DNA of 64,000 nucleotides from Sphingobacteriales bacterium (GTDB lineage Bacteria > Bacteroidota > Bacteroidia > Chitinophagales > LD1), in contig JADFDM010000001.1 in NCBI GenBank assembly GCA_018262795.1, positions 62,001 to 126,000 on the forward strand, written 5' to 3'. Below the pieces are notes generated by a model. The model did no database searches. It was not told where the DNA came from and saw only the letters and a program-made list of their open reading frames with translations. Made by a program: the position numbers and the translations under genes. Shown one piece after another: positions 5,175 through 48,971 of the stretch. Position 1 is the first letter of the stretch. The number at the start of each line of letters is the position of its first letter.

Positions 5175-5279
5175 TGGCAGCGAAACAAAAATAAGGGATG
5201 CGCCCTAAGTGTTTTGCTTTCAGTTGCTTTTTCTTGTTAAGCGAGCCGGAGGGCCTACCAAACTTAAAGTGGTAAGATA

Positions 5280-12473: not shown

Positions 12474-12482
12474 TCTTTAAAT

Positions 12483-13886
12483 TTAAGCTCCGGTTCTGAA
12501 CTTCTCTAACTTTTGAAATAGAAAAGTGCTGAGGGGGTTGGTTGCGGCATAAAATAGTGCTAACGGAACAAAACAGAATAAGCCTCGTTTGAAGGAACTT
12601 TCCATGAGGGAATACAGCGGAGCCTTCTGGGCCGTTTCGTCAATAAAGTAAAATACTAAGGTGTACAGTATGAAGGCTGTAAAGAAGAATAGAAGCAGAT
12701 TCATTTTGTCGAGCAACACCTTTTTAACTCCTGCTTTATACATCCACGCAATGTTTGCTAATAGGAAAAAGAAGAAGAGAATAAATGCCCATCCATATAA
12801 TTGCCCACCGTCAATTCCTCCGAGTTGCCCCCCGAAAAGATAGGCCTTGATGTAGCCCATTATCTGATGAACACGATCCGCATCGTAACCTATTCCAAGA
12901 TTAAATCTCCCCGTTTGGGTAAAGTGTATTTTGAATTTCAGGTATAGATTCCAGATAATAAAAGGGGAAACGATGATGGAGGAATAGACGAGCGCTTCGC
13001 GCCATTTTTTGGTACGCAGAAAATCTATACCTATAATAAAGAGTGCGGCTGCGATAAAGACAATGGTATCGCTTCGGATCCAAATAACAAGCGCCATAAG
13101 AATAGCCCCTAACCAAAAGAATTTCTTATCTCGTGTAGCTAACCAAGTAATAGTTGCCAATGCTGCGGGTCCCAAATAAGCAGTGGTCGGAAGGTTATCT
13201 AAGGCCAATGCCGCATGTGAAAACATCTCAGGAGTAATCATGAGGATAAAGGTAAACAGAGCCGCAGCCGTGGAGCCTACATAGCTATTCACCAAACTGT
13301 AAAAGGTAGCAAGCAACGACAGGAAAAACAGGGTAATCATGATTTTTGCGGTTACGGCTCCAAAAATATAGGCATAAGCAAACGAAGCGTGGAACAGTGG
13401 CGGATATACCCCTCCTGCTCCTTCCAGATTATAATCGAACAAACTGATTTTAAGTTTCCCTTCTATAGCCATTATTCTACCCAACTTATCAAATGAGCCA
13501 ATGGCATCGTGGGCACTGGCCGGCCAAAATAGGTTCTTCACTGTAATGGCATAAAACAGATAAGCCATTATACAAAAGATAAAAACAGCCACGAGGTTGA
13601 TATGGCGCAGGCTTAGATTCGGCTTTTTAAATTCATTTTTCAAGCGGAGTAAAGAGCGATAATTAGCCCCGTTGATGGCTAAAATAACTGTCACATTTAG
13701 CCCAATAAGAAGAGTAGGGGAGTAGAGAATTCCTACAATATCTAACACAAATAGAAAAAAAGATTCTATCCCAATTCCGATCAGAAATGAATAGCCGATC
13801 AGTTCGGCCAATGTGTATTTTCTACTGATAGCTAACAGCACTGATACTCCGAGTAGATAGCACAATATGATTCCCAGCGTCAGCAT
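12483..13886 (-). CDS. Polytopic membrane protein, GT-C glycosyltransferase-like
   Basis: A 467-residue protein with about 11 membrane helices. Between helices three and five lies a polar loop with PASAHDAIGSFDKLGRIM (near residue 130), recalling the acidic first-loop motif of GT-C glycosyltransferases that use polyprenyl-phosphate sugars; the VYPPLFHASFAYAY segment follows. It abuts the gene for a single-pass protein (13887) and lies two genes after a polyprenyl-type GT2 enzyme (14648), an arrangement expected of a system that loads a sugar onto a lipid and transfers it on the outer face of the membrane. The GT-C assignment is moderate; an O-antigen ligase-like protein is the alternative. 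Confidence 0.6.
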   Translation of the reverse strand: MLTLGIILCYLLGVSVLLAISRKYTLAELIGYSFLIGIGIESFFLFVLDIVGILYSPTLLIGLNVTVILAINGANYRSLLRLKNEFKKPNLSLRHINLVAVFIFCIMAYLFYAITVKNLFWPASAHDAIGSFDKLGRIMAIEGKLKISLFDYNLEGAGGVYPPLFHASFAYAYIFGAVTAKIMITLFFLSLLATFYSLVNSYVGSTAAALFTFILMITPEMFSHAALALDNLPTTAYLGPAALATITWLATRDKKFFWLGAILMALVIWIRSDTIVFIAAALFIIGIDFLRTKKWREALVYSSIIVSPFIIWNLYLKFKIHFTQTGRFNLGIGYDADRVHQIMGYIKAYLFGGQLGGIDGGQLYGWAFILFFFFLLANIAWMYKAGVKKVLLDKMNLLLFFFTAFILYTLVFYFIDETAQKAPLYSLMESSFKRGLFCFVPLALFYAATNPLSTFLFQKLEKFRTGA

Positions 13887-14642
13887 CTATGGATTCGTTT
13901 TTAGGTTGGCAGGTGCCTGATTAATCGGAAGTACCGCCTCCGCAGGGCGTTCGTTTTCCGGAACATGGTACTTCAGTTTATCATATCCCTTACCTTCGAT
14001 AATTAAAACGTGGGTGATTTTTTTTGCCAAATCGGGATGTTCATCTTCTCTGCCAATAGTGAGACATAGGCGGGGATAGATAAAGTACTCCATCCATTCG
14101 GGATCATAAATGAAGTTCCATTTTGAATTGTTGGAAACAGCAGAATCGCCCTCCGGTAAAAGAATCACGGCATCCTCGGGAGTGTTGCTGCGGATGTACT
14201 GAATAAAAGGATACACCCCCACTTTCATGGAAAGTTTGGCATCTAATAAAGACTGCTTTGTGCTATCTAATCCTCTGCGGTGAATCTCTTCTTTGATTCC
14301 TTCAATACTTTCTAAATTTTTCATCGCCAGCTCATGAATAGCCCAGTGATAGCCGCGAGTGGTTCTGGTCAGGAAAGAGGTATCGCTCTGTATCTCTATA
14401 ATTTCATTATACACTTCTTGTAACCGCGACTGGTTGCCATTGCTTTGCCGTAGTTGTGAAAACTCCTGATACAAATCCTGAAGTTTACTCTGCTTTTCAT
14501 TTCGTTTATCAATGACAAAGAACAGAAAGGCAATACCGACTACTATTAGCAGGTTACGACCTATATATGTCGCTGCACTAAATTCAGTTACCGACTTTTT
14601 TTTAGCAGGCGGTGGTGACGTATGTTTAGTAGGCTTTGACAC
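13887..14642 (-). CDS. Single-pass membrane protein with periplasmic domain, function unknown
   Basis: A 251-residue protein: Pro/Lys-rich cytoplasmic start, one membrane helix (about 30-46), a coiled-coil-like stretch (48-95), then a globular domain with FIQYIRSNTPEDAVILLPEGD and EWMEYFIYPRLCLT. That last pair resembles the soluble C-terminal portion found after the membrane part of some GT-C glycosyltransferases, so it may be a split-off partner of the 12483-13886 protein, whose start follows its stop with no gap. This is inference from similarity of style and from gene order. Confidence 0.65.
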   Translation of the reverse strand: MSKPTKHTSPPPAKKKSVTEFSAATYIGRNLLIVVGIAFLFFVIDKRNEKQSKLQDLYQEFSQLRQSNGNQSRLQEVYNEIIEIQSDTSFLTRTTRGYHWAIHELAMKNLESIEGIKEEIHRRGLDSTKQSLLDAKLSMKVGVYPFIQYIRSNTPEDAVILLPEGDSAVSNNSKWNFIYDPEWMEYFIYPRLCLTIGREDEHPDLAKKITHVLIIEGKGYDKLKYHVPENERPAEAVLPINQAPANLKTNP

Positions 14643-14647
14643 TTCGC

Positions 14648-15352
14648 TTAATTGACAAATCTGAATTTAATAAGAACCCATAAAGCTTTTAAGCCATCGC
14701 GCCAGTTCATTTTTTTCCCTTCAGCAAAGCTGCGTGGATAATAATTCATCGGCAACTCCTTTATCTTATATCCCATTTTGGAAACTTTGGCCGTTACTTC
14801 CGGGCAAAACTCAAAGCGGTCATATTCCAAAGGTATTTTTTTTAGTACATCTGCGCGAAAAACTTTATAGCAAGTAGCTTCATCCGTAATATTTTGACCG
14901 TAGAGAATGTTCACTACCCAACTCAGAAACCGCGCCCCAAATTTGTACGCAAAGTATAACGACTTTTCCGTTTGGTTGAGATAACGGGAGCCATATACCA
15001 CACTCGCTTCTCCTTTTTTAATAGGCTCTGTGAGGTGAATAAAATCATTGGGGTTCGTTTCTAAGTCGCCATCCTGTATGGAGATTATTTCACCGGTAGT
15101 ATGCGGTATTCCCGTGCGGATGGCACCTTCCTTACCGATGTTTTGGTCGTGGTACAGCACTTTAATGCCGGGGGTATTTTCATACTCTTTCAGAATATCG
15201 CGAGTGCCGTCAGTAGAAGCATCATCCACTATCACCAATTCCTTTTCAATAGGAACAGCCAACACCTTCGCAATGATTTCGCGAATAGTTTTACGCTCGT
15301 TAAACACCGGCATTATTATGGATAGTTTCACAGGCCCTTCTTCAATATGCAA
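14648..15352 (-). CDS. GT2 glycosyltransferase, polyprenyl-phosphate sugar synthase type
   Basis: A 234-residue GT-A fold enzyme like dolichol-phosphate mannose synthase. It has LSIIMPVFNERKTI at residues 10-23, the nucleotide-binding ELVIVDDASTDGT near 38, and the DxD-type metal site IQDGDLETNPNDF near 92. There is no membrane segment, so it belongs to the soluble group. It probably charges undecaprenyl phosphate with a hexose in the cytoplasm for use by the membrane proteins encoded just downstream (13887, 12483). Confidence 0.85.
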   Translation of the reverse strand: MHIEEGPVKLSIIMPVFNERKTIREIIAKVLAVPIEKELVIVDDASTDGTRDILKEYENTPGIKVLYHDQNIGKEGAIRTGIPHTTGEIISIQDGDLETNPNDFIHLTEPIKKGEASVVYGSRYLNQTEKSLYFAYKFGARFLSWVVNILYGQNITDEATCYKVFRADVLKKIPLEYDRFEFCPEVTAKVSKMGYKIKELPMNYYPRSFAEGKKMNWRDGLKALWVLIKFRFVN

Positions 15353-15641
15353 AGCGGCAAAACTAAAAGATTAGGCATAATAAGAAAGGTTTGCGCTAAG
15401 CACTTTCCCAAATAGATGATCCACGACCGACAGTCAGGGAGAAATTCACTGCACCCGGTTTAATTCACTTCCCTTTTTAGCTCAATAGAGAGTGCGGGGA
15501 AAGATACTCTTCGTTATAGCACTTTATTTATTGATTAGCGATGGAGAAATCACAAGAATTTTGGAGGTAAATGAATTAAGGATAGTATTGAGGGGAAATA
15601 CAGCGAAACAAGAAATACTGAGTTTCTGCAATCATAGAACC

Positions 15642-29224: not shown

Positions 29225-30118
29225 TCAAGTGAAGCGAAGACTCACCTTTAACTCCTTCGAGCCTGCCTCGTATTTATAAAAACCCTCTCCGCTTTTGGCT
29301 CCGAGATACCCGGCTGTCACCATGTTTACCAATAGCGGACAGGGAGCATATTTTGGATTTCCAAAGCCCTCCTGCAACACGCGGAGGATGGCAAGGCACA
29401 CATCTAATCCAATGAAATCAGCTAACTGTAAAGGCCCCATCGGATGCGCCATGCCTAATTTCATCACCGTATCAATCTCTTTAATGCCGGCCACGCCTTC
29501 ATATAAAGTATAGATCGCCTCATTAATCATTGGCATCAGAATCTTGTTGGCCACAAAGCCGGGATAGTCATTCACTTCTACCGGCATTTTGCCGAGCGTG
29601 CGAGAAGTTGCCATAATGAGTTGCAATACTTCGCTCGAAGTGGCATACCCTTTTATCACCTCCACTAATTTCATCACCGGCACGGGATTCATAAAGTGCA
29701 TTCCTATTACTTGGTGGGCTCTTTTCGTGGCCGCTCCAATTTTAGTAATAGAAATGGAAGAAGTGTTTGAAGCAAGAATAGTTTCCGGCTTGCAAATCGC
29801 ATCCAGATCTTTAAAAATTTTCAGTTTAATGTCCGTGTTTTCTGTTGCTGCTTCCACTACCAAATCAGCATCTGCGCATATCGCGAGCGAAGTATTGGTG
29901 CTAAGATTTTTGAGCGTGTTGCTTCTCCCTTCTTCGCTGAGAGTTCCCTTTGAAACCATGCGGTCCAGATTTTTAGTAATCACCGCTAAGGCTCTGTCCA
30001 ATGCCGCTGCCGATACATCTACCATGCAAGTTTCAAATCCATTCATAGCAAATACGTGTGCAATTCCATTCCCCATGGTTCCTGCCCCAATCACCGATAC
30101 TTTCTTAATCATGCTCAT
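29225..30118 (-). CDS. 3-hydroxyacyl-CoA (3-hydroxybutyryl-CoA) dehydrogenase
   Basis: A 297-residue NAD(P)-dependent enzyme of the short 3-hydroxybutyryl-CoA dehydrogenase type, oxidising L-3-hydroxyacyl-CoA or working in reverse. The Rossmann motif VIGAGTMGNGIAHVFA is at residues 9-24; the catalytic His is in GMHFMNPVPVMKLVEVI near 143; NDYPGFVANKILMP follows near 185. Its ATG overlaps the stop of the M1 peptidase gene by four bases, so it is translated from the same message, a puzzling pairing. An alternative start is the ATG two codons in. Confidence 0.93.
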   Translation of the reverse strand: MSMIKKVSVIGAGTMGNGIAHVFAMNGFETCMVDVSAAALDRALAVITKNLDRMVSKGTLSEEGRSNTLKNLSTNTSLAICADADLVVEAATENTDIKLKIFKDLDAICKPETILASNTSSISITKIGAATKRAHQVIGMHFMNPVPVMKLVEVIKGYATSSEVLQLIMATSRTLGKMPVEVNDYPGFVANKILMPMINEAIYTLYEGVAGIKEIDTVMKLGMAHPMGPLQLADFIGLDVCLAILRVLQEGFGNPKYAPCPLLVNMVTAGYLGAKSGEGFYKYEAGSKELKVSLRFT

Positions 30119-32496
30119 TCTTTTATTATTTTTTTAGTGATAGACGTTGTTGTCTTTTCTTTTAAAGTGATAAAGTAAATGCCTTTAGGCAATGCTTTTA
30201 GGCTGATAGTAATGGAAGGCTCTTGGGAAGAAACGCTCTGTGTCATCAGATTTCTTCCGCTTAGATCATTGATTCGTAATTCATCAAAAATATTCTGCTG
30301 AAACCGAACCGTTACATTGTCATTAGCCGGATTCGGAAAAATTTTGAAATCATTGTGATTAGATTCACGAATCGTTGACTGAAGCAAACACGAAGTCCTT
30401 GTATCGCTGGCAGTCGGCAAAGTTGAATTCCAGATAGCCATCGCATACTCCCCTTTCTTTAGCGAATAAATGGTGATGGTTCCTACTTTATCATTTGGAT
30501 TTCCCTGGGTGTTTACCATAAAAGAATCGGCCAATACCCAGTCGGTAGTTTGGTCGGGCCGATACATCAGCACTAAGCTGTCTTCGGTGTTCGTAAAAAA
30601 AGTATTGTCTAAATAGGCTCCGGCAGTGCCGTCATAATTCACTACAGCACCGGCTCTAAAAGTAGAATCGAAAATTCCATCTACCGTCCAGTATCTGTAA
30701 TCGTGTAAGTGTAACCCCTGAATGGGATTCTTCATCGCGTCAGGGGCAATCCAGTTGTGCTCCACTCTCACTAATGCTGAATCTTGAATATTCGTAACGC
30801 TCAATTTCATTTTAGCTGTACCAAAATCATAAGTCCCGGTATCAGTTACTATTTTCCATTCATCGGTAATGGCATCCTGAAGTTTTTCGTGGAAATCGAG
30901 TGCCACATACACCGGAGTAAAATTGGGGAGAATTAATTGGTGATGAGTGCATTCGCCACTTACATACACCACTTCATCATAGCGGGTCCAGTATTTGTCG
31001 AAGTAAGTAATAGTGACGGGTACCAGCGTGTAATAATGTGGTGCATGACTTAATCTTTGCCGGATATACACGTCTGTAGTCACGTTCACTATATCCGTTT
31101 GCTTCGTTTGCCACTTTTCTATCGAGAAATGTGGAAAGCCGGGAGCATTCACCCAGTCGTCAAAAAAGGAATTCAAATTTTTACCGGAGCATTGGTTCAG
31201 GTAGTCTTTTAGTTGTTGGGTGCTGGAATGAGTGTAAGCAAAGTCACTGAGGTAATTCTTCATGCAGTTGAAAAAATCAGGGTCGCCCATATAAAAGCGC
31301 AGCGTGTGAACAACATCACTGCCTTTGTCGTACACCGTTGCTCCATACGTTTTATCTGAAGGAACTCCATTTACCGACAAGTATGCGCCATCGCTCACGT
31401 GAGCGCGGTGGAGTACATTTTCATGATTAATTCGCTGATATGTTTTGGCAGAATCTACTCCGTAAAAATTTTCGAGAAACAGTGTTTCATTGTACGCTGC
31501 CCAGCCCTCGTTGAGCCACATTTCCGAAGCCTTGTCGCAGGTGACTAAGTCCCCAAACCAATGATGGCTCAGTTCGTGAGCCATAGTCGTTTCGCAACTG
31601 CTGGCGTAGGAATTGAGGTAATACTGCATAAAGCCGATATTGGTTGCGTGCTCCATAGCCCCTGCTTTGAACGGAAGAATGCAATAGCCCACTCGTTCCC
31701 ATTGGTACGGCCCCCAAAGGTTTTCCTGAATATGAAAAGCATCCTTTAGATGGATGAAGAGATTTTTTAGGGCTGTGGTATCTGCGCTGCGAGCCGCCAA
31801 CTCAATCGGAATAACCCCGTTAGCCGCATGTACAGTATCGCTCAGTGTTTGGTAATCTGATACCGCCACGGAGGCTAAATAGGAAGGAATGTTTTCCTGA
31901 AGTTTCCAATGCCAGGTCTTTGTGTTTGCATTTTGCGTAATCCCTTCTAACAGTCCGTTGCAAAAAGCTTTGTGATTGTTTTTTGTAGTGATATAGAATT
32001 CGAAATAACTGCGCTCTTCAAAATTGTCGAAGCAGGGAAACCATACTCGTCCGTAGCAATGAGGGTTTTCCAGAAAACTAACGCCTATGTTATAAGCGTA
32101 AAGAGAATTCCAGTAAAAGCCCCCGAAATCGCCCGGCATTTGTACCGGACGACCATGATAAAATAATTGAACAGTGGCAGAGTCGCCCACATTCAGAGTG
32201 GTAAGCAGGTTAATATCCACTACGGTATCGTTGTAGGTGTAAAGGGTATTGTAGGAATTAACCTTGATGGAATCAATCGTAAGTTTCAGCAAATCGAGAT
32301 GCACACCATTCACTCCGTTCATTTTGCTTTTTATACCGAGTGTAGCATCAGCGTAGAGTATTTTGCCGCTAAAGTCGCTGAGGTCTATGTTCAGGCGGCA
32401 AGAAACGATATCAATGGTATCGCCTCTGGCATCGCGGGCATTTCCGGAAAGGATGAACAGGCAAAGGCAGAATAAACCAAGTGTAAATTTTCTCAT
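30115..32496 (-). CDS. Secreted M1 family metallopeptidase with T9SS sorting domain
   Basis: A 793-residue protein. It has a signal peptide (about 1-20), an M1 N-terminal beta domain, exopeptidase motif AGAMEH, zinc site HELSHHW with the third ligand in WLNEGWAAYNE (HEXXH-18-E) and a C-terminal type A sorting domain (about 715-793) beginning FKIFPNPANDNVTVRF and ending in a Lys/Glu tail. The sorting domain predicts export by the type IX system and attachment or release at the surface. Its role is probably extracellular peptide digestion as an aminopeptidase. It heads an operon with the 3-hydroxyacyl-CoA dehydrogenase gene (four-base overlap). Confidence 0.93.
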   Translation of the reverse strand: MRKFTLGLFCLCLFILSGNARDARGDTIDIVSCRLNIDLSDFSGKILYADATLGIKSKMNGVNGVHLDLLKLTIDSIKVNSYNTLYTYNDTVVDINLLTTLNVGDSATVQLFYHGRPVQMPGDFGGFYWNSLYAYNIGVSFLENPHCYGRVWFPCFDNFEERSYFEFYITTKNNHKAFCNGLLEGITQNANTKTWHWKLQENIPSYLASVAVSDYQTLSDTVHAANGVIPIELAARSADTTALKNLFIHLKDAFHIQENLWGPYQWERVGYCILPFKAGAMEHATNIGFMQYYLNSYASSCETTMAHELSHHWFGDLVTCDKASEMWLNEGWAAYNETLFLENFYGVDSAKTYQRINHENVLHRAHVSDGAYLSVNGVPSDKTYGATVYDKGSDVVHTLRFYMGDPDFFNCMKNYLSDFAYTHSSTQQLKDYLNQCSGKNLNSFFDDWVNAPGFPHFSIEKWQTKQTDIVNVTTDVYIRQRLSHAPHYYTLVPVTITYFDKYWTRYDEVVYVSGECTHHQLILPNFTPVYVALDFHEKLQDAITDEWKIVTDTGTYDFGTAKMKLSVTNIQDSALVRVEHNWIAPDAMKNPIQGLHLHDYRYWTVDGIFDSTFRAGAVVNYDGTAGAYLDNTFFTNTEDSLVLMYRPDQTTDWVLADSFMVNTQGNPNDKVGTITIYSLKKGEYAMAIWNSTLPTASDTRTSCLLQSTIRESNHNDFKIFPNPANDNVTVRFQQNIFDELRINDLSGRNLMTQSVSSQEPSITISLKALPKGIYFITLKEKTTTSITKKIIKE

Positions 32497-34283: not shown

Positions 34284-36701
34284 ATGACTGAGAATACAAT
34301 GACTAAAAAGATTCCCTCAAAAATTTCATTTGAAGATTTTAAGCAGGAAGTGCTGAACGATTTTCGCATTGCCTGTATTTCGCGCGAAACCAGTTTGTTG
34401 GGAAGAAAAGAAGTGCTGACCGGCAAAGCCAAATTTGGAATTTTTGGCGATGGGAAGGAAGTGGCACAAATTGCTTTAGCAAAATCATTTGCTCGCGGTG
34501 ACTGGCGCAGCGGCTACTATCGCGATCAAACCTGGATGATGGCTTTAGGGGAGTTGACGGTAGAGCAATTCTTTGCGCAGCTTTATGCCAATGTGAATCA
34601 GCAAGACGAGCCGATGAGTGCCGGCAGGCAAATGAATGGCCATTACGTCACCCGAATACAAGATGAAAACGGCCATTGGTTAGATCAAACGGCTCGCTAT
34701 AATTCCTCAGCCGATGCTTCTCCCACAGCTTGCCAGATGCCGCGTTCATTAGGCCTTGCATTAGCTTCAAAACTTTATCGGGCGAACAAAGATTTGGAAG
34801 ACTATACAATGTTTTCAGAGAAGGGCAATGAAGTTTCTTTTGTTTCCATCGGTGATGCCTCAACCAGTGAAGGCTTGTTTTGGGAAACATTGAATGCTGC
34901 GGGGGTACTACGTGTGCCTTTGGCTATTTCTGTGTGGGATGATGGCTATGGTATTTCGGTACCTAAAAAATATCAAACAACAAAAGAAAGTATCTCCGAA
35001 GTTTTAGAAGGTTTTAGAGTAGATGAAACAGGGAGAGGGATAGAGATATATGTCAGCGAGGGATGGAACTACCCAAAATTGATAGAAACTTATAAGCAAG
35101 GTATAGACAAAATGCGCAAGACGCAGGTACCGGCATTGTTCCATATTATCGAAGTAACGCAACCGCAAGGTCACTCCACCTCCGGCTCGCATGAGCGCTA
35201 CAAGTCGGCTGAGAGAATGGAATGGGAAAAAGAGTTCGACTGCCTAAAAAAAATGAAGGAATGGATGATCGAAAGTGGCATTGCTTCAGCGCAGGATTGC
35301 GACCAAATAGCTGATGAAGCCCGGCAACACGTGTTAGAAAGTAAGAACGATGCTTGGCGGAAATACATTGAACCGATAAAAGAAGAAGTGAAGGAGGTGC
35401 TTGAATTACTCGAAAATATTTCAGCACAAACCGGGGATAATTTCAGTGCAGCGGCAGCGGCAGAACTTCGCTCTACTCGTGATGTCATACGAAAAGATAT
35501 TTTGAAATCAGGGAAGAAAGTGCTGCGCCATTTCCGAGGAAATCATTCGGCCGCGGTAAATGAATTGCGCCATTGGCTTTCTGATTTTGAAAATAAATAT
35601 CAGGAAGTGTACAGCTCGCACCTACATAGCGAGAGTGATCAAAGCGCATTGAAAGTTCCGGTAGTGCCGGCCGTTTTTTCAGAAGACGCTAAAATGCTGA
35701 ATGGCTTCGAGATTTTGAATGTGCTTTTTGATAAACTGTTTGAGAAGTATCCGAACGCAGTGGCTTTTGGGGAGGATGTAGGAAAAATAGGGGATGTAAA
35801 TCAAGGCTTTGCCGGCATTCAAGAAAAATATGGTGAACAGCGAATTTTTGATACCGGAATTCGCGAAGCCACAATTATGGGGCAGGGAATAGGGCTGGCA
35901 TTGCGCGGTTTTCGCCCCATTGCCGAAATTCAATATCTCGATTATCTACTGTATGGTCTCGAGCCTTTGGCCGATGATCTTGCCAGCCTTCAGTATAGAA
36001 CAAAAGGTGCTCAAAAAGCTCCCCTCATTGTACGAACACGCGGCCACCGCTTAGAAGGGATTTGGCATACGGGTTCTCCAATGGGTATGATCATTCATTC
36101 GCTGCGTGGTATTTATGTATGTGTGCCGCGAAATATGGTGCAGGCTGCCGGCATGTATAACACTCTGATGCAAAGTGACGAACCCGCTTTAATGATCGAA
36201 TGCCTAAATGGCTACCGATTAAAAGAAATGCTTCCTGACAATATTGGTGAATTCACAGTACCGCTCGGCATTCCTGAAATAATAAAGAAAGGCGATGATG
36301 TGACCGTGGTTACTTATGGCTCTTGTATTCGGGTGGCCGAGGAAGCAATGGTACTTCTAACGGCCGTTGGTATTTCAGTAGAACTGATTGATGTGCAAAC
36401 CTTGTTGCCTTTCGATATTCATCATTCCATTATTGAATCCGTCAAAAAGACAAACCGAGTAGTATTTCTGGATGAAGATGTTCCCGGAGGAGCCTCTGCT
36501 TACATGTTCCAAAAGGTATTTGAAGAGCAAGGGGCATATCGCTGGCTCGACTCTGAACCCAAAACAATTACAGCTAAAGCCCATCGTGCTGCCTATGGAA
36601 CTGACGGAGATTATTTCAGCAAGCCAAATGCGGAAACTATTTTTGAGGAGATATATTCAATGATGAGTGAAACGGACCCGGAACGATGGCCTCAGTTGTA
36701 A
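34284..36701 (+). CDS. 2-oxoacid dehydrogenase E1, alpha and beta chains fused
   Basis: An 805-residue thiamine diphosphate enzyme joining both E1 chains of a branched-chain 2-oxoacid dehydrogenase type complex. Alpha part (about 1-400): ThDP motif GDASTSEGLFWE at residue 190 and a VWDDGYGISVP loop near 218. Linker about 400-470. Beta part (about 470-805): AFGEDVGKIGDVNQGF near 495, REATIMGQGIGLALRG near 528, RTRGHRLEGIWHTGSP near 585 and VFLDEDVPGGASAYM near 728. It probably decarboxylates branched 2-oxoacids for an E2/E3 encoded elsewhere. An internal ATG five codons in is an alternative start. It is monocistronic here. Confidence 0.93.
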   Translation: MTENTMTKKIPSKISFEDFKQEVLNDFRIACISRETSLLGRKEVLTGKAKFGIFGDGKEVAQIALAKSFARGDWRSGYYRDQTWMMALGELTVEQFFAQLYANVNQQDEPMSAGRQMNGHYVTRIQDENGHWLDQTARYNSSADASPTACQMPRSLGLALASKLYRANKDLEDYTMFSEKGNEVSFVSIGDASTSEGLFWETLNAAGVLRVPLAISVWDDGYGISVPKKYQTTKESISEVLEGFRVDETGRGIEIYVSEGWNYPKLIETYKQGIDKMRKTQVPALFHIIEVTQPQGHSTSGSHERYKSAERMEWEKEFDCLKKMKEWMIESGIASAQDCDQIADEARQHVLESKNDAWRKYIEPIKEEVKEVLELLENISAQTGDNFSAAAAAELRSTRDVIRKDILKSGKKVLRHFRGNHSAAVNELRHWLSDFENKYQEVYSSHLHSESDQSALKVPVVPAVFSEDAKMLNGFEILNVLFDKLFEKYPNAVAFGEDVGKIGDVNQGFAGIQEKYGEQRIFDTGIREATIMGQGIGLALRGFRPIAEIQYLDYLLYGLEPLADDLASLQYRTKGAQKAPLIVRTRGHRLEGIWHTGSPMGMIIHSLRGIYVCVPRNMVQAAGMYNTLMQSDEPALMIECLNGYRLKEMLPDNIGEFTVPLGIPEIIKKGDDVTVVTYGSCIRVAEEAMVLLTAVGISVELIDVQTLLPFDIHHSIIESVKKTNRVVFLDEDVPGGASAYMFQKVFEEQGAYRWLDSEPKTITAKAHRAAYGTDGDYFSKPNAETIFEEIYSMMSETDPERWPQL

Positions 36702-38493: not shown

Positions 38494-41400
38494 ATGAAAA
38501 ATATTTTACTCCTGCTGCTGGCACCTTTTCTGCTTCACTCGCAGCCCAACAATGTCCCTGCTTCTAAAGCCTATTTTCAACAACAAGCCGATTATGATAT
38601 AGAGGTGGAGTTGAACGATACCACCAATGAACTAAATGGATTTATTACTATTCGTTACACCAACCATTCTCCCGATGCACTGACGTTTGTGTACATGCAC
38701 CTATGGCCAAATGCCTACATGGATCAGAACACTCCTTTGGCCAAACAGTTATTGGAGAATGGCAAAACTTCATTCTGGTACAGCAAACCTTGGCAGCGTG
38801 GTTATATAGATAAACTTGATTTTAAATTAGATGCAGAAAATTGTCAGTGGAGTTTTGATTCTACTACGAAGGAAATCTGCAAAGTGTATTTGAACCATCC
38901 ACTCAAAACCGGTGAAACGGTGAGCATCTCTACTCCCTTTCATGTAAAGCTGCCCGAAACTTTTTCGCGCATGGGGCATGTGGGGCAGAGTTATCAGATT
39001 ACGCAATGGTATCCGAAGCCGGCTGTGTACGATCGCTACGGTTGGCATCCGATTCCGTATTTAGATCAGGGAGAATTTTATTCGGAATTTGGCTCGTATG
39101 ATGTGGCTATTACTTTGCCCGATAACTATGTGGTAGGAGCCACCGGTGATTTACAGGATACCGATGAAATAAATTGGTTGAACAGCAAAGCGGAAGCCGC
39201 GAAGGGAATTAAGGAGTTTGATCCGGATATGCGATTTCCCGCTTCGTCACCTCATCTTAAAACAATACACTACCACCAAGAAAAGATTCACGACTTCGCT
39301 TGGTTTGCCGATAAGCGGTTTTTTGTTTTGAAAGGAGAAGTTGAACTGCCTTATTCTAAAAGCAAGGTAACTACTTGGAGTTTGTTCACGCCAAAGAATG
39401 CCGACTTGTGGTTGAAAGCTCCGCAATATCTACACGATGCTATCTACTATTACAGTTTGTGGATTGGCGAATACCCTTACAAGCAAGTGACCGCAGTAGA
39501 TGGCACTATTAGTGCAGGAGGGGGCATGGAATATCCGAACATCACCATCATTGGCGATGCGGGGAGTGACTTTGAACTGGATGATGTGATTACCCACGAA
39601 GTGGGCCACAACTGGTTTTACGGAATTTTGGGGAGCAATGAGCGCGACCATGCCTGGATGGATGAAGGAATCAACTCCTATTACGAATACCGGTATCTGC
39701 GCACAAAATATCCTAACCGTCAACTCATCGGCAAATTTCCCGCAGGTATTGCCAAGGCCTTTGACCTGGCACAATACAAACACAAATACCAGATGGATTT
39801 GGGGTATCAGTTAATGGCTCGCGAAAACTATGACCAACCTATTGATATTCCTTCTACAGAATTTACAGATGCGAATTATGCCCTGATGGTGTATGGCAAA
39901 AGCATGCTCATCTTCGATTATTTGGAGGCTTATCTGGGAACAAAAAAGTTTGACAAGGCGATGAAGAAATATTTTGAGCAGTGGCAGTTTAAACACCCGC
40001 AGCCCGAAGATATTCGCAATGTGTTTTCATTCGTTACAAAGGACTCGCTGAATTGGTTTTGGGAGGATTTGCTAAACACCAATAAGAAAATTGATTTTAA
40101 GATAGGTAAGGAATACCCCAATTGGACGGAGGGCACCCGGAAAATAAAATCAACTCAAAAACCTTTAGAAACAGAGAAGCCCGACCAAAAGAAACGTTCT
40201 GCGCGATTGACACAGGAATTAATACAAGACAGTACGGATAACGCACACGGGCAAACCATCAAATATTTTCATTTTAAGAATCTCGGTGAAGTGGATGGTC
40301 CTTTCCCTGTTTCCGTATTAAAAGGAGATTCTATTATCCGAACAATTTGGATACCTGCCTATGATCGAAAGGCGGGTCAAAACCATAAACGATTTAGAAT
40401 GGACGTGTCGGGCGGAGATAGAGTCCAGATTGATCCACTGTTGAAAATTCCCGAAATTAACCGGAAGAACAATACCTATAAATTGAACAAACCCGCACCT
40501 CTGTTAGAGAAGCTACGACTTCAATTTCTTACTTCTATCGAAAATCAAAACCGCACTCAAATCTGTTGGGCTCCATACTTGGGCTGGAACAATTACGATA
40601 AAACTCAGGTGGGTTTAGTATTCTACAATCCTTTTATTCCCAAACAGAAATTTACCTACATGCTGGCTCCGGCTTTTGGTACCGGCTCCGTACAGTTTAT
40701 AGGCATGGGGCGGTTGGCCTATAATTTTTACCCCGAAAAAAGTGTGCAGCGGTTTACGGTGGGTATTTATGGCAAGCGATTCTCTTATCTTCTGTTTCCG
40801 AAAAATTTGACCTTCAACAAAATTGAACCGTATATTGATATTGAATTTCAGAAGAAGAATGCCCGTAGTGTTTATTCTCATTATCTCCACCTGCGCAGTG
40901 TAAATGTGTGGTTAGACTGGATTAACTTTAAGAACAAGAAAAAGGAAACGCAGCGATATTTTGTGAATGAACTGAAGTATCGCTTCGAGCGCAAAACTAC
41001 GTTGCACCCGCTGAATGTAACCGCTACGCTCCAGCAAGGCAATAATTTTTTGGGACTTTGGGCAGAGGGAAATTTTACCATCAGTTATAAGCGCAAAAAC
41101 GAAGGCTTCTTTATCCGCGTGTTTGCCGGTGGTTTTCCGGTTTATTTTAAAGGGGCTTCAGATATTACTGCGCCACTTCCGCGATTATATCTGAGTACAG
41201 TTAGCAATAACACCTTTGCTTACTGGTTGCAAAAGGATTACATGTTCGATGAGAATTTTGTAGATCGCAATGGACGCGATAAATACTTAGGCCGGCAGGT
41301 GGCACTTAGTGGTGGCGCATTCCGCTCTATCACCACCTTTGGCGCTACTTCCAAATTTTTAGCAGCTGCAAATTTCAGCACTACTACGCATCGCTTCTTC

Positions 41401-41649
41401 CCGGTGTATCCCTTTGTATCGGTAGGCGCGGTGATGAACGACTTTAAAAAAATAGACTTTGCAGCCGAACTTGGTTTGTCAGTAGCCATCATCCGCAACA
41501 TGATAGAAATTCATTTGCCTTTAGTCACTACAAAAAATATCTCCGACAATCAAAAGGTGCTTGGCATCAACAAGTGGTATCAGAAATTCACTTTCACACT
41601 GAAGCTGCAGATGCAGAAACCAATAGACCTTATCAGAAGGTTTATTTGA
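38494..41649 (+). CDS. Large M1 family metallopeptidase with C-terminal beta-barrel-like region
   Basis: A 1051-residue exported protein. Signal peptide about 1-17; M1 beta domain from about 30; exopeptidase motif variant GGMEYPNI near residue 347; zinc site H368-E369-V-G-H372 with third ligand E391 (WMDEG), exact HEXXH-18-E spacing. From about residue 690 the sequence turns to alternating aromatic and polar short strands with tight turns (APYLGWNNYDKTQVGLVFYN, VQRFTVGIYGKRFSYLL), suggesting an outer-membrane barrel of about 360 residues. It is a paralogue of the 44487-47747 gene. It probably displays a peptidase at the cell surface or in the periplasm; the barrel is my inference from pattern. 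Confidence 0.87.
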   Translation: MKNILLLLLAPFLLHSQPNNVPASKAYFQQQADYDIEVELNDTTNELNGFITIRYTNHSPDALTFVYMHLWPNAYMDQNTPLAKQLLENGKTSFWYSKPWQRGYIDKLDFKLDAENCQWSFDSTTKEICKVYLNHPLKTGETVSISTPFHVKLPETFSRMGHVGQSYQITQWYPKPAVYDRYGWHPIPYLDQGEFYSEFGSYDVAITLPDNYVVGATGDLQDTDEINWLNSKAEAAKGIKEFDPDMRFPASSPHLKTIHYHQEKIHDFAWFADKRFFVLKGEVELPYSKSKVTTWSLFTPKNADLWLKAPQYLHDAIYYYSLWIGEYPYKQVTAVDGTISAGGGMEYPNITIIGDAGSDFELDDVITHEVGHNWFYGILGSNERDHAWMDEGINSYYEYRYLRTKYPNRQLIGKFPAGIAKAFDLAQYKHKYQMDLGYQLMARENYDQPIDIPSTEFTDANYALMVYGKSMLIFDYLEAYLGTKKFDKAMKKYFEQWQFKHPQPEDIRNVFSFVTKDSLNWFWEDLLNTNKKIDFKIGKEYPNWTEGTRKIKSTQKPLETEKPDQKKRSARLTQELIQDSTDNAHGQTIKYFHFKNLGEVDGPFPVSVLKGDSIIRTIWIPAYDRKAGQNHKRFRMDVSGGDRVQIDPLLKIPEINRKNNTYKLNKPAPLLEKLRLQFLTSIENQNRTQICWAPYLGWNNYDKTQVGLVFYNPFIPKQKFTYMLAPAFGTGSVQFIGMGRLAYNFYPEKSVQRFTVGIYGKRFSYLLFPKNLTFNKIEPYIDIEFQKKNARSVYSHYLHLRSVNVWLDWINFKNKKKETQRYFVNELKYRFERKTTLHPLNVTATLQQGNNFLGLWAEGNFTISYKRKNEGFFIRVFAGGFPVYFKGASDITAPLPRLYLSTVSNNTFAYWLQKDYMFDENFVDRNGRDKYLGRQVALSGGAFRSITTFGATSKFLAAANFSTTTHRFFPVYPFVSVGAVMNDFKKIDFAAELGLSVAIIRNMIEIHLPLVTTKNISDNQKVLGINKWYQKFTFTLKLQMQKPIDLIRRFI

Positions 41650-43319: not shown

Positions 43320-44438
43320 TCAGAACAGTTTATAGCGCTTACCGGGCAGGGTTACTATCCAGTCCTTCATTTCCATTTCGAGTAGCAGTGCAGCGAGCAT
43401 TCCCCCGCTCATGGCGGTCTTCTCAGCCAGCGCATCAATCTCCATGTCGTTCCCTTCATTTAAGGCATTGTAAATCTTTCTTTCTTCTTCACTCAGGTTT
43501 AGCAACAATTCGCGTTGTTGCTTGCTTTTTTTCACAACTCCTAATTCAATATTCCAATTCAGAGCCGTCAATACATCCTCTCCACTTTCTATCAGTTGCG
43601 CCCGGTTGGTTTTAATGAGGCGGTTGCAGCCCTTACTCCATTTGTCTGTAGTTTTACCGGGTACAGCGAATACATCGCGGTTATAAGTATTGGCAATATT
43701 GGCCGTCAATACGGCTCCGCCATCTTCAGCCGACTCAATCACGATGAGTGCATCGCACAATCCCGCTACTATTCTGTTGCGGTTTGGAAAATTATGCGGA
43801 CTCATTTTTTCGGTAGATCGGAATTCACTGAGCAAACCACCCTGCTCTATCATTTTTTGAGCCGTTGCTTTGTGTTGTTGCGGATAAATTGTGTTCAGCC
43901 CATGACCCAACACGGCTACCGTTTTTAGTTGATGTTCCAAGGCAGCTTGGTGTGCCGCTATATCAATACCATAAGCCAGCCCGCTTACAATCAGTATATC
44001 CTGTGTAGCTAAAGCGGAAGTAATCTTCTTCACCATATCTCTCCCATAATCAGTGGCTCTGCGAGTGCCCACAATGCCCAAAGTTTTTTCTGCATTCAAG
44101 TCTGCCTTGCCTTTGTAATACAACAGCAAAGGAGAATCGGCACATTCTTTCAACCGAGAAGGATATTTTTCATCGGTAAAGAACAGGGGAGCGATGGCAT
44201 ACTTCTCTATGAACTTTAATTCATTTTCCGCTTCGTGTAGCACATCGCTCTGTGTAATAAATTGCGCGCGATCTTCACCTATGCCCGGCACCTTTAGCAA
44301 TTTAGCCTTGGGCGCTTTAAACACAGTTTCGGCACTGCCGCAATACGCTAAAAGATTTTTAGCCAGCGCAGGGCCTATATTCGGAATCAAGGTGAGCGCT
44401 ACGCGATATAAAAGTTCGTGTTGGGTCTTATTCGGCAA
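43320..44438 (-). CDS. dprA: DNA processing protein DprA
   Basis: A 372-residue protein that loads RecA onto incoming single-stranded DNA in natural transformation. An N-terminal helix-hairpin-helix region (IPNIGPALAKNLLAYCGS near residue 17; VPGIGEDRAQFI near 50) precedes the Rossmann-like core (GTRRATDYGRDMVKKI near 127; GLAYGIDIAAHQAAL near 157; AVPGKTTDKWSKGCNRLI near 263) and a C-terminal winged-helix domain. Length and domain order are normal. It is convergent with the aldehyde dehydrogenase gene and divergent from the next M1 gene across 48 bases. Confidence 0.96.
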   Translation of the reverse strand: MPNKTQHELLYRVALTLIPNIGPALAKNLLAYCGSAETVFKAPKAKLLKVPGIGEDRAQFITQSDVLHEAENELKFIEKYAIAPLFFTDEKYPSRLKECADSPLLLYYKGKADLNAEKTLGIVGTRRATDYGRDMVKKITSALATQDILIVSGLAYGIDIAAHQAALEHQLKTVAVLGHGLNTIYPQQHKATAQKMIEQGGLLSEFRSTEKMSPHNFPNRNRIVAGLCDALIVIESAEDGGAVLTANIANTYNRDVFAVPGKTTDKWSKGCNRLIKTNRAQLIESGEDVLTALNWNIELGVVKKSKQQRELLLNLSEEERKIYNALNEGNDMEIDALAEKTAMSGGMLAALLLEMEMKDWIVTLPGKRYKLF

Positions 44439-44486: not shown

Positions 44487-47400
44487 ATGAATAGATTTTT
44501 ACTTTCCGTTGCACTATTTCTGATTCTCCTCCCTTTCGTTTCTGCTCAGCAGGCGTATAGTGATCGGGGACCATCTGATAATTACAGCACTTCCGGCAAT
44601 CCTTATTACTGGAAAAATCGCACCCCTTTTAGCGGCTACTGGCAGCAAGATGTGCATTATAAGATTCGCGCGAGCTTAGATGAAACTACCGATATTATTA
44701 CCGGAGAGGAAGAACTTACTTACGTCAACAATTCCCCTGACACGCTTTACTTCGTTTACTTCCACCTATATCAAAATGCTTTTCAGCCCGGTTCGTACTT
44801 AGATAATTTGGAACGCGAAAACGGCCAAAATCCGAAATATGGAAAATACGAGAGTGCCCGATTAGGCTGTGTGATAGATGAAATAAAGGTGGATACACTG
44901 CCTTTGAAAACTTTTTTGGACAACACGGTCATTAAAGTTTTTCTCGACCAACCTTTGCCGCCCAATGCTTCCAAACTACTTTCTATTAAGTTTCGCACCT
45001 TCTATGATACCGGCTCGGTGCGCAGGCGCATGAAGAAATACAAAGTGTTCGGGCAAACCCACTACAACGGATGTCAGTGGTATCCAAAAATCTGTGTGTA
45101 CGATCGCAAGAGTGGATGGAATACCGACCAGCACATGAATCGCGAATTCTATGGCGACTTCGGCACCTTTGATGTAGCACTCACCATAGCTTCAAACTAT
45201 GTGATGGAAGCTACAGGAGTATTGCAAAATGAAGAGGAGGTATTGCCCGATACGCTGAGAAAGAAACTCGACATCTACCATTTCAAAGACAAAAAGTGGG
45301 GGGAGAAACCTTCGGTGATTACGCCTTATGTAAAAGGCGAAACAAAGACTTGGAAATATCATGCAGAGAATGTTCACGATTTTGCTTTTACAGCCGATCC
45401 AACTTATCGCATTCACGATACCATCATTTACCCCGGTCGGAAGAATGGTGAAGGAGTTCGCTGTGTGGCTATTGTGCAAGAAGCCCATGCCTCCGGCTGG
45501 CAAAATGCTGCGGACTATCTCTCAAAAATCATTGCTGTTTTCTCTCGTGATTTTGGTGTTTTTGAATATCCCAAAATAGTGGTGGCCGATGCTCAAGACG
45601 GGATGGAGTATCCCATGCTGACTTTAGATGGCGGGCGCGATAAAGAATATCGTGGTTTGTTAGTACACGAAGTGGGTCACAACTGGTTTTATGGTATGCT
45701 CGGCAACAATGAAACTTACCGCGCTATGATGGATGAAGGCTTCACACAGTTTCTCACAGCGTGGGGGATGGAAGCCATAGATGGGGATACGGTGCCCTAT
45801 GATTTGGGGAAGAACAAATACTATAATCATTTTTTTGAACCGGTAAATGTGCGCGACAGCAAAGTGTTTTACGGTTACTTGTCAGATGCTATTCGCTACA
45901 ATGATGAACCATTGAACACGCATAGTGATGGGTTTAACGGGGCACTTGGGCAAGGTGGAGGGTATCGGCATGTGTATTACAAAACAGCGACCATGCTTTA
46001 TAATCTTCAGTATGTGCTGGGCGATTCGCTATTTAGTGCCGCTATGAAAAACTATGTGGCACAATGGAAATTTTGCCATCCGTATCCCGAAGATTTTCGC
46101 AATTCGGTGTCGCACTATACTCATGCCGACCTCAATTGGTTTTTTGATGAATGGATGGAGACCACAAAAAATATTGACTACAAAATTGCCGGCATTAAAA
46201 AGACCGGTTTGAAGGATCAATATAAAATAAAGCTGCGCAGAAAAGGAAGAATGCAAATGCCTATTGATTTTCGGGTGGTGTCGAAAAACGATTCTGCCTA
46301 CGATTTTTACATTCCCAATACATGGTTTGAAAAGAAGTTAAATGATAGTGCTGCTCTTCTTCCTAAATGGTATGGCTGGGATAAACTGGAGCCTACATAT
46401 ACAGCTACTGTAAATATTCCCGGAGGAATAAAAAATGTAATTATTGACCCAAGTGAACGACTGGCCGATATTAATATGCTTGACAACCGCAAAAAAGGAA
46501 CGGTGGAGTTTCGGTTCGACTCCCATATTTATCCCTATCCGAGCTGGAAAAAGTATCGGATGTATATGCGCCCCGATATTTGGTGGAATGCTTTTGATGG
46601 AGTAAAGGTGGGGGTGCATCTCGAAGGAAATTACATGTATGTGAAGCACAATTTTTCCCTTACCGTTTGGTTGAACACTCATTTGCTACAGGGCAGAGAA
46701 CGCTATTACTTTGACAAAGCCACTCGCCAAAAAGCCGGATGGTTCTCTTATAATTTCAGTTATAGCACTGCCTTAGACCGGATATTTAAGAAATCTACTT
46801 TCTATTTCCAGAGCCGCTGGTTAGATGGTTGCGAAATGTATAAGACAGGAATCACCAAACAACTGCCACAAAATTTCTCGCTCGATTTTCACATCAAAGC
46901 ATTTACTCGCAATAGAGAGGAATGGCGGAACTATTTGCTGTACCCTAATGAATGGGATGCCGTGTGGACCGACCATAAAAAATTTAATACCTCTCTGAAC
47001 CTCTCACTTTCGTACCGATATGACAAGCCACATGCACAAGGAAACTTCACTGCGCATCTTCGCAGTAGTGCGCTATTTAGTTCGTTCAATTATCATTATT
47101 TCGAGTTAACACAAGTGAACCATAGCAGCGCTTGGAAGCTTGACTTCCATACTCGTTTTTACGGTCGTATCGGTACAGGAAATAATTTGCCTTCTGAGTC
47201 GGCTCTGTATTTTGCAGGAGGCAATCCCGAAGAAATGATGGACAGTAAATATTACCGCGCAGCGGGTTTTGTGCCGCAGAGTTGGGCACTTCGCTACCGC
47301 GATGATATCAATCCCCTACACTTTGGCGGAGGGCTGAACATGCGCGGCTATAGCGGTTATTTGTTAGCAGAGAAAGATAAGTATGGTCAAGTGATTCCTG

Positions 47401-47747
47401 CTTATAAAGGGCCTTCAGGAGCATCTGTAAATATTGAAATGGATTTTAACCGCATAGTGCCGGTGAAGAATCAATGGCTGCGTCAGCACTTCGCACTCCA
47501 TACATATCTTTTCGGAGATGCGGGGATAATTACATACATAAACTCAGCCAATAAGCAGCAGTTCTCTAATATCCGCTTTGATGGGGGAGTGGGAGCCGCA
47601 CTCACCATTAAAAAGTGGGGACCTCTACAGAACATCAAGCCGCTGACACTCCGATTTGACGTTCCGTTCTTTATTAGTCATGCTCCATTTGTGGATCAAA
47701 AGCATCTGAAATTTCGATGGGTAGTAGGAATCAGCCGGGCGTTTTAA
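44487..47747 (+). CDS. Large M1 family metallopeptidase fused to an Omp85-like C-terminal barrel
   Basis: A 1086-residue exported protein. Signal peptide about 1-20; M1 domains to about 660, with DGMEYPML (371-378, GAMEN-loop variant) and zinc ligands H394, H398 and E417 (HEVGH-18-E). From about residue 680 the sequence looks like a 16-strand outer-membrane barrel: it opens RPDIWWNAFDGVKVGVHLEG, has GGGLNMRGYSGY around R953-G954-Y955 (like the RGF/RGY motif of Omp85 lid loops), LFGDAG near 1013, and ends on phenylalanine (GISRAF), the usual last residue of barrel proteins. A surface- or periplasm-facing peptidase anchored by its own barrel is inferred. Confidence 0.88.
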   Translation: MNRFLLSVALFLILLPFVSAQQAYSDRGPSDNYSTSGNPYYWKNRTPFSGYWQQDVHYKIRASLDETTDIITGEEELTYVNNSPDTLYFVYFHLYQNAFQPGSYLDNLERENGQNPKYGKYESARLGCVIDEIKVDTLPLKTFLDNTVIKVFLDQPLPPNASKLLSIKFRTFYDTGSVRRRMKKYKVFGQTHYNGCQWYPKICVYDRKSGWNTDQHMNREFYGDFGTFDVALTIASNYVMEATGVLQNEEEVLPDTLRKKLDIYHFKDKKWGEKPSVITPYVKGETKTWKYHAENVHDFAFTADPTYRIHDTIIYPGRKNGEGVRCVAIVQEAHASGWQNAADYLSKIIAVFSRDFGVFEYPKIVVADAQDGMEYPMLTLDGGRDKEYRGLLVHEVGHNWFYGMLGNNETYRAMMDEGFTQFLTAWGMEAIDGDTVPYDLGKNKYYNHFFEPVNVRDSKVFYGYLSDAIRYNDEPLNTHSDGFNGALGQGGGYRHVYYKTATMLYNLQYVLGDSLFSAAMKNYVAQWKFCHPYPEDFRNSVSHYTHADLNWFFDEWMETTKNIDYKIAGIKKTGLKDQYKIKLRRKGRMQMPIDFRVVSKNDSAYDFYIPNTWFEKKLNDSAALLPKWYGWDKLEPTYTATVNIPGGIKNVIIDPSERLADINMLDNRKKGTVEFRFDSHIYPYPSWKKYRMYMRPDIWWNAFDGVKVGVHLEGNYMYVKHNFSLTVWLNTHLLQGRERYYFDKATRQKAGWFSYNFSYSTALDRIFKKSTFYFQSRWLDGCEMYKTGITKQLPQNFSLDFHIKAFTRNREEWRNYLLYPNEWDAVWTDHKKFNTSLNLSLSYRYDKPHAQGNFTAHLRSSALFSSFNYHYFELTQVNHSSAWKLDFHTRFYGRIGTGNNLPSESALYFAGGNPEEMMDSKYYRAAGFVPQSWALRYRDDINPLHFGGGLNMRGYSGYLLAEKDKYGQVIPAYKGPSGASVNIEMDFNRIVPVKNQWLRQHFALHTYLFGDAGIITYINSANKQQFSNIRFDGGVGAALTIKKWGPLQNIKPLTLRFDVPFFISHAPFVDQKHLKFRWVVGISRAF

Positions 47748-47993: not shown

Positions 47994-48971
47994 ATGAGAA
48001 AGATTCGATTTAGAGAAGCACTGCGCGAAGCGATGAGCGAAGAAATGCGCAGAGATGATGCCGTGTTTTTGATGGGAGAGGAGGTGGCCGAGTATAACGG
48101 AGCCTACAAGGTAAGTCAGGGAATGTTGGCTGAGTTTGGCGAGCGCAGAGTGCGCGATACGCCTATTTCTGAATTGGGCTTTGCCGGCATTGCAGTGGGA
48201 GCCGCCATGAACGGTGCCCGCCCCATAGTTGAGTTTATGACCTGGAATTTTGCCATCCTTGCTTTTGACCAAATCATTAATGGAGCCGCCAAGTTACGAG
48301 CCATGAGTGCAGGTGAATTTAGCAGCCCGATGGTATTTAGAGGACCGCAGGGAAGTGCCGGGCAATTAGGCGCACAACATTCGCAGATGCTTACGAATAT
48401 GCTGGCTTCGGTGCCCGGACTTAAAGTGATTTCCCCCTCTAATCCTTATGATGCGAAAGGGCTTCTCAAGAGTGCTATCCGCGATGATAATCCGGTCATT
48501 TTTATGGAGAGCGAAGTGATGTATTCTGACATGGGCGAAGTGCCCGAAGAGGAATATCTGATCCCAATAGGCAAGGCCGACATAAAACGTGCGGGTACGG
48601 ATGTTACTATAGTGTCTTACAACAAGATGATGAAGATAGCACTATCGGCTGCTGAAGAATTGGAAAAAGAAGGCATCAGTGCCGAAGTGATTGATCTCCG
48701 CACCATCCGCCCTTTAGATGTAGAAACGATGGTGAATTCGGTAAAGAAAACCAACCGCTTAGTAGTGATAGATGAAAGTTGGCCTTTCACTTCTATTGCT
48801 TCTGAAGTGACCTTTCAGATACAGCGCCATGCCTTTGATTATCTCGATGCCCCTGTGCTGCGCGTATGCGGGGCAGATTCTTCGATGCACTATGCGGCTA
48901 ACTTAGTAGAGGCGTATTTGCCTTCAGTCGAAAAAGTGGTGAAGGCCGTGAAAGGAGTAATGTATAAGTGA
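47994..48971 (+). CDS. pdhB: Pyruvate dehydrogenase E1 component, beta chain
   Basis: A 325-residue chain of alpha2-beta2 type pyruvate dehydrogenase E1. Conserved segments are FLMGEEVAEYNGAYKVSQG near residue 24, DTPISELGFAGIAVGAAMNG near 55, FRGPQGSAGQLGAQHSQ near 115 and VVIDESWPFTSIASEV near 258. It makes acetyl-CoA from pyruvate together with the alpha chain, which is not adjacent here although alpha and beta genes are often paired. A separate fused E1 at 34284 lacks the pyruvate-type features, so the two probably serve different 2-oxoacids. Confidence 0.93.
   Translation: MRKIRFREALREAMSEEMRRDDAVFLMGEEVAEYNGAYKVSQGMLAEFGERRVRDTPISELGFAGIAVGAAMNGARPIVEFMTWNFAILAFDQIINGAAKLRAMSAGEFSSPMVFRGPQGSAGQLGAQHSQMLTNMLASVPGLKVISPSNPYDAKGLLKSAIRDDNPVIFMESEVMYSDMGEVPEEEYLIPIGKADIKRAGTDVTIVSYNKMMKIALSAAEELEKEGISAEVIDLRTIRPLDVETMVNSVKKTNRLVVIDESWPFTSIASEVTFQIQRHAFDYLDAPVLRVCGADSSMHYAANLVEAYLPSVEKVVKAVKGVMYK

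Follow-up and report, generated by a model that had tools for sequence, protein, structure and literature searches.

The gene considered here raises the question of what a peptidase of family M1 does with an outer-membrane barrel at its end, and on which side of the membrane it does so. It lies at 44487..47747 (+ strand, as do all its features given below) of a window of 64,000 nucleotides, i.e. the whole stretch of DNA analysed, which covers positions 62,001 to 126,000 of contig JADFDM010000001.1 (GenBank assembly GCA_018262795.1) of a Sphingobacteriales bacterium. The intact open reading frame encodes a protein of 1086 residues, P0001, whose last residue is the phenylalanine already pointed out in an earlier note on this DNA. 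That note had read the protein as an M1 peptidase fused to an Omp85-like barrel which may insert in the outer membrane and present or secrete its own enzyme. That an M1 peptidase is joined to an Omp85-type barrel in one chain, with a direct junction lacking a POTRA domain, is well supported by the present analysis. Judging from sequence, structural models and analogy, we consider this fusion, referred to as type A, to be probably an outer-membrane-anchored periplasmic M1 metallo-aminopeptidase whose barrel serves mainly as an anchor.

Sequence and model lend good support to the N-terminal part being an M1 enzyme with an intact active site. Pfam assigns PF01433 (Peptidase_M1) to residues 386-556, the score of 44.7 bits lying above the cut-off of 27.7. 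The surrounding catalytic domain (about residues 332-560; 45480..46166) is preceded in the model by the N-terminal beta region of the M1 part (about residues 52-331; 44640..45479) and followed by a beta-sandwich which ends the M1 part (about residues 565-659; 46179..46463). Upon structure search, the P0001 model superimposes on 1z1w over 455 residues (Z 27.6, rmsd, i.e. root-mean-square deviation, 3.0) and on a two-domain M1 enzyme from Deinococcus over residues 52-659 (Z about 26). The matches listed for the whole model are all M1 enzymes, which we did not count against the barrel. NCBIfam yields a single aminopeptidase match for P0001, which is below threshold. The complete active site claimed in the earlier note is indeed present: the zinc site HEVGH (residues 394-398; 45666..45680) provides H394, E395 and H398, while E417 (45735..45737) supplies the third zinc ligand in the arrangement HExxH-18-E, and all four residues are found in 17 of 17 aligned type A sequences, P0001 among them. 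The same holds true for Y497 (45975..45977), which we take to be the probable catalytic tyrosine from the role known for it in the M1 family, and for Y464. The classical exopeptidase motif of the M1 family is of the GxMEN type. P0001 contains a variant of it, GMEYP (residues 372-376; 45600..45614), in which the asparagine is replaced by tyrosine and of which G372, M373 and E374 occur in all 17 sequences.

A putative Sec signal peptide, read by eye from the translation, occupies residues 1-20 (44487..44546; VSA/QQ); it contains no lipobox cysteine and its residues 4-18 are modelled as a helix. The AlphaFold2 model was calculated on an alignment of 17 sequences from which L088 (runs of N) as well as L086 and L087 (partial) were excluded. 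It is of moderate quality with a mean pLDDT (predicted local distance difference test) of 78.3 and a pTM (predicted template modelling score) of 0.75; within the long loop, pLDDT falls below 50 at residues 930-941. The tail of about 400 residues suspected to be an outer-membrane barrel is modelled from residue 690 onwards as 16 main strands (residues 690-1086; 46554..47744), a count which omits short pieces at 673-677, 961-963, 969-971 and 1024-1026 and includes a short strand 16 (residues 1079-1082). The alternation of hydrophobic and polar residues which the earlier note had also remarked upon exceeds that of all 5000 within-strand shuffles, also if the last strand is taken as 1079-1082. The sole very long loop of the model is loop 6, which joins strand 11 to strand 12 and comprises 77 residues (901-977; 47187..47417). 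Since the M1 fold aligns up to about residue 659 and strand 1 starts at residue 690, there is no space for a POTRA domain in between, and Pfam finds no POTRA match in P0001. With the M1 part placed before strand 1 of an even-stranded barrel, both termini should face the periplasm. The modelled loops agree with this expectation for the N-terminus, as those after odd strands measure 3, 22, 2, 24, 6, 77, 11 and 16 residues (161 in total) versus 4, 7, 3, 2, 2, 15 and 11 (44 in total) after even strands.

According to the available part of a 2015 paper (PMC4490367), Omp85 proteins are characterised by a lid-lock in which the tip of loop 6 carries (V/I)RG(Y/F) and this motif locks with (F/G)xDxG on strand 13. 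The resemblance to the RGF/RGY lid-loop motif noticed earlier is borne out by GGGLNMRGY (residues 947-955; 47325..47351), which is situated within loop 6 and whose MRGY (952-955) carries methionine instead of valine or isoleucine at its first position. Among 22 type A barrels, R953 is retained in 18, G954 in 20, and tyrosine or phenylalanine at position 955 in 19. LFGDAG, singled out in the earlier note as well, is located at residues 1008-1013 inside strand 13 (1002-1018), and its FGDAG portion (1009-1013; 47511..47525), the candidate lid-lock partner, keeps F1009 and D1011 in 21 of the 22 barrels each. These are alignment column counts, as motif counts by regular expression take in chance RGx matches. 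When 17 type A barrels are compared by hhalign with 32 Bacteroidota Omp85 proteins, the match amounts to 96.9%, with an E of 1.4e-10 if this comparison is taken singly. In an earlier version of the comparison, the RGY of type A was paired with the RGF of Omp85. The corresponding controls amount to 0.8% for FadL, 0.2% for TonB receptors, 1.0% for the reversed Omp85 alignment and at most 0.7% for 20 column shuffles; the FadL set comprises 28 of 30 loci and the TonB receptor set 29 of 30, a few rows near contig ends being possibly mis-cut. The barrel profile also detects the Omp85 gene of the window's own genome (G000:C12, E 1.4e-4) and that of genome G033 (7.0e-4). Moreover, the barrel of a homologue, L012, exceeds the cut-off of PF01103 (27.1 versus 24 bits), a family which 2 of the 22 type A members match at E of at most 1. 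Considering strands, loop position, motifs and profile match together, we hold the P0001 barrel to be a member of the Omp85 superfamily, an assignment which sequence and model support. Barrel strands and Omp85 profile similarity, whose absence the earlier note had named as fatal to its proposal, are both found, and outer-membrane insertion as suggested there is likely for such a barrel.

A second M1-barrel gene, type B, is located 2.8 kb upstream of the type A gene (38494..41649, + strand) and was recognised from its open reading frame and by Pfam. The 1051-residue product is 33% identical to P0001 across the M1 part, and the active-site residues are as invariant in type B (20 of 20 sequences) as in type A. 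Its model (pLDDT 83.6, pTM 0.83) contains a barrel of 16 main strands at residues 687-1036 (40552..41601), in which strands 11 and 12 are again connected by a long loop. The profile comparison of type B with type A barrels yields 97.1-98.3%. The window's type B protein does not contain RGY; by regular expression, an RG or KG motif is present in 5 of 19 type B rows, a count which includes chance matches and is not tied to loop 6.

On this basis, we envisage that Sec would export P0001 by means of its signal peptide and that the cell's own BAM complex would presumably insert the C-terminal 400 residues, folded into the 16-stranded barrel which model, profile and motifs suggest, in the outer membrane. 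The M1 domain would then take the position of POTRA domains and be tethered to the periplasmic face of the outer membrane, as barrel topology and the precedent of the patatin-bearing protein PlpD imply. There it would most likely trim N-terminal residues of peptides, be they taken up from outside through the outer membrane or released in envelope protein turnover, which is the least certain step of the proposal. The barrel would act mainly as an anchor, its pore being closed and lid-locked in type A and degenerate in type B, where the RGY half of the lock is mostly lost.

Several observations weigh against this proposal. Pfam leaves the tail of P0001 unmatched and P0001 itself reaches no Omp85 model of Pfam, nor did the barrel profile find any chain among PDB sequences. 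Type B, mostly devoid of RGY, is less similar to Omp85 (81.4%, E 1.2e-5); only its loop 6 and its last loop produce the loop-length pattern, the other loops being reversed in length with 3, 4, 2, 4, 2 and 2 residues after odd versus 8, 5, 8, 6, 6, 7 and 3 after even strands. Finally, since type A barrels are also encoded with no peptidase attached, the barrel may possess a function beyond anchoring. The empty Pfam and PDB searches could be taken to mean that an ordinary outer-membrane barrel resembles Omp85 by chance. We judge this very improbable in view of the specificity of the profile match, the strand count and loop position, the presence of both motifs and the Pfam match of L012. In line with this, an unrelated barrel was ruled out as a candidate, FadL and TonB-receptor profiles not exceeding 3.1% across four queries.

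The self-translocation or surface presentation which the earlier note had proposed would require the barrel to transport the attached M1 domain to the cell surface in a type V-like manner. An N-terminal enzyme followed by a C-terminal barrel is indeed the order found in autotransporters. Classical autotransporters (type Va) possess a 12-stranded barrel with a helix running through its pore. P0001 is predicted to have 16 strands instead, retains its lid-lock motifs, and shows no sorting tail of the type IX secretion system (T9SS) by Pfam. According to the available part of PMC11116518, PlpD was long believed to operate in this manner, yet its patatin domain is found only in the periplasm. Barrel topology and this precedent place the enzyme in the periplasm and leave surface display unsupported, so that this part of the note is probably wrong and a displayed peptidase appears improbable to us. 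We are somewhat less sceptical, while still deeming it unlikely, towards a peptidase-coupled gate, i.e. a barrel which conducts or laterally releases polypeptide whose N-terminus is trimmed by the M1 domain, thereby coupling peptide import or outer-membrane protein assembly to cleavage. Type A barrels conserve the two lid-lock motifs, and this conservation, for which a mere anchor would have no need, leaves room for a gate that handles polypeptide; in addition, the M1 domain occupies the position at which POTRA domains take up substrate, and there are genes which encode the barrel by itself. The missing POTRA domain speaks against it, as does type B, which stays fused despite having mostly lost RGY. 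The anchored periplasmic aminopeptidase thus remains the reading we prefer. If the gate were real, it would represent an Omp85 pore with its POTRA domains replaced by an aminopeptidase, in which polypeptides are trimmed in passage, and add a use to the Omp85 fold beyond insertion, secretion and the carrying of a lipase.

Matches to P0001 are present in 221 of 296 genomes of the phylum. Among the matches listed, the frames are mainly about 610-690 or about 980-1180 residues long, others ranging from 524 to 1602, and many of the shorter Bacteroidota relatives (about 610-690 residues) cease to match at P0001 residue 664-670. The barrel is matched in 34 of 40 genomes searched among relatives (own genome included), 30 of them in frames of at least 900 residues and the remaining four in frames of 718, 560, 158 and 88 residues. 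An artefact of fusion or assembly was ruled out by these 30 long frames. As the genome profile searches scored at most four candidates per genome, the barrel counts are lower bounds: the type A barrel profile is matched in at least 91 of 395 phylum genomes, the type B profile in at least 66. With regard to type A, 41 genomes contain a frame of at least 990 residues and 53 one of 380-480 residues, 8 having both and 5 neither; the long class rests on length, with the M1 domain checked in part of its frames. Type B is matched once per genome, in 64 cases within a frame of at least 900 residues; the exceptions are a frame of 445 residues which starts 352 bases into its contig and one of 501 residues with an in-frame TAG. 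One M1-barrel fusion of 899 residues (L116:5968-8664) stems from a metagenome-assembled genome labelled candidate division TA06, meaning either spread beyond Bacteroidota or a misplaced contig, as the label of a single contig can be a binning error. Elsewhere in the phylum, two long M1 proteins of 1083 and 1071 residues are encoded in tandem by overlapping frames (L071:9203-12451 and 12424-15636).

A tree of the M1 domains, calculated by a quick method with midpoint rooting from 89 of 92 rows (L087, L114 and L147 were left out as truncated), shows type B as one clade with a support of 99; three changes are required for type A, among whose members the shorter forms branch. As far as the sequences indicate, this fits an old fusion from which the barrel was later lost, the root of the tree not being fixed. 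Stand-alone type A-like barrels of 397-455 residues without an M1 domain are encoded at L217:6803-7993 and by 16 more genes in L218-L229 and L232-L234. Their recurrent neighbours, with families named from L217, are greA (15 of 18 loci), NUDIX (14), caspase-like and phosphotransacetylase (13 each), acetate kinase and EamA (10 each); the neighbourhoods of these 18 loci offer no functional clue. In L217, the genes close to those of the stand-alone barrel and of acetate kinase include one for a caspase-domain (C14) protein of 578 residues with an SH3-like match (3857-5590, - strand), whose cluster is present in 13 of the 18 loci.

As to the neighbourhood within the window, a third M1 peptidase of 793 residues (30115-32496, - strand) ends in the T9SS sorting domain PF18962 (54.3 versus 27 bits). 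Three M1 enzymes which differ in their targeting parts, two of them ending in a barrel and the third in a T9SS tail, are thus encoded within 18 kb. The M1-barrel pair is flanked by 2-oxoacid dehydrogenase E1-like genes (34284-36701 and 47994-48971), one of the fused alpha/beta type and one of the beta type. The divergent neighbour of the type A gene is dprA (43320-44438, - strand). When loci elsewhere were searched for the four window neighbours (type B M1, aldehyde dehydrogenase, DprA and E1-like), dprA was found divergent beside type A in 6 of 14 loci at the level of the order, where contig ends truncate some loci.

Within titles and abstract openings of the papers listed from the open-licence literature in PubMed Central, the scope of our search, we found no description of an M1-Omp85 protein, in agreement with the earlier note, which knew of no well-described M1 counterpart of PlpD. 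In the available parts of two papers from 2025, the one dealing with the BAM complex of Flavobacterium johnsoniae (PMC12611786) does not contain the word "peptidase" and the one on TamL (PMC12045153) contains it solely as signal peptidase. P0001 appears to represent a widespread variant of the enzyme-Omp85 theme, a protein layout broadly distributed in Bacteroidota which is apparently undescribed as far as searched: in both M1-barrel proteins of the window, the Pfam and NCBIfam matches cover the peptidase half alone. This layout points to Omp85 barrels being able to dispense with POTRA domains and bear a peptidase instead. Moreover, it offers a test of the purpose of the lid-lock, type A having kept both motifs while type B has mostly lost one.

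Compared with known systems, residues 52-659 of P0001 share fold and active site with M1 aminopeptidases such as tricorn F3 (1z1w), the Deinococcus enzyme 6a8z and LTA4H, which lack a barrel. From T9SS cargo, P0001 differs by not carrying the C-terminal sorting domain present in the M1 enzyme at 30115-32496, and from type Va autotransporters by its predicted strand number. With BamA, TamA/TamL and FhaC, it has in common the strand count, the position of loop 6 and the (V/I)RG(Y/F)-like and (F/G)xDxG motifs, while those proteins contain POTRA domains and no enzyme; P0001 therefore does not belong to the POTRA-bearing Omp85 proteins (BamA, TamA, FhaC, PlpD). Another metal-dependent domain found with Omp85-type barrels is PF00149, which we take to be a metallophosphoesterase. 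It defines the difference from the "Metallo" subfamily of Omp85 proteins described by Heinz and Lithgow (2014; PMC4104836), which likewise combines an Omp85-type barrel with a metal-dependent enzyme domain and whose PF00149 domain is called a metalloprotease there. The available part of that paper distinguishes ten Omp85/TpsB subfamilies, among them ones without POTRA, and does not use the word "peptidase". P0001 most closely parallels PlpD and the PL-Omp85 proteins: in both cases an N-terminal hydrolase precedes a 16-stranded Omp85-type barrel in one chain and the enzyme is expected on the periplasmic side, the hydrolase being a patatin there and an M1 zinc peptidase here, which in P0001 adjoins the barrel without an intervening POTRA domain.

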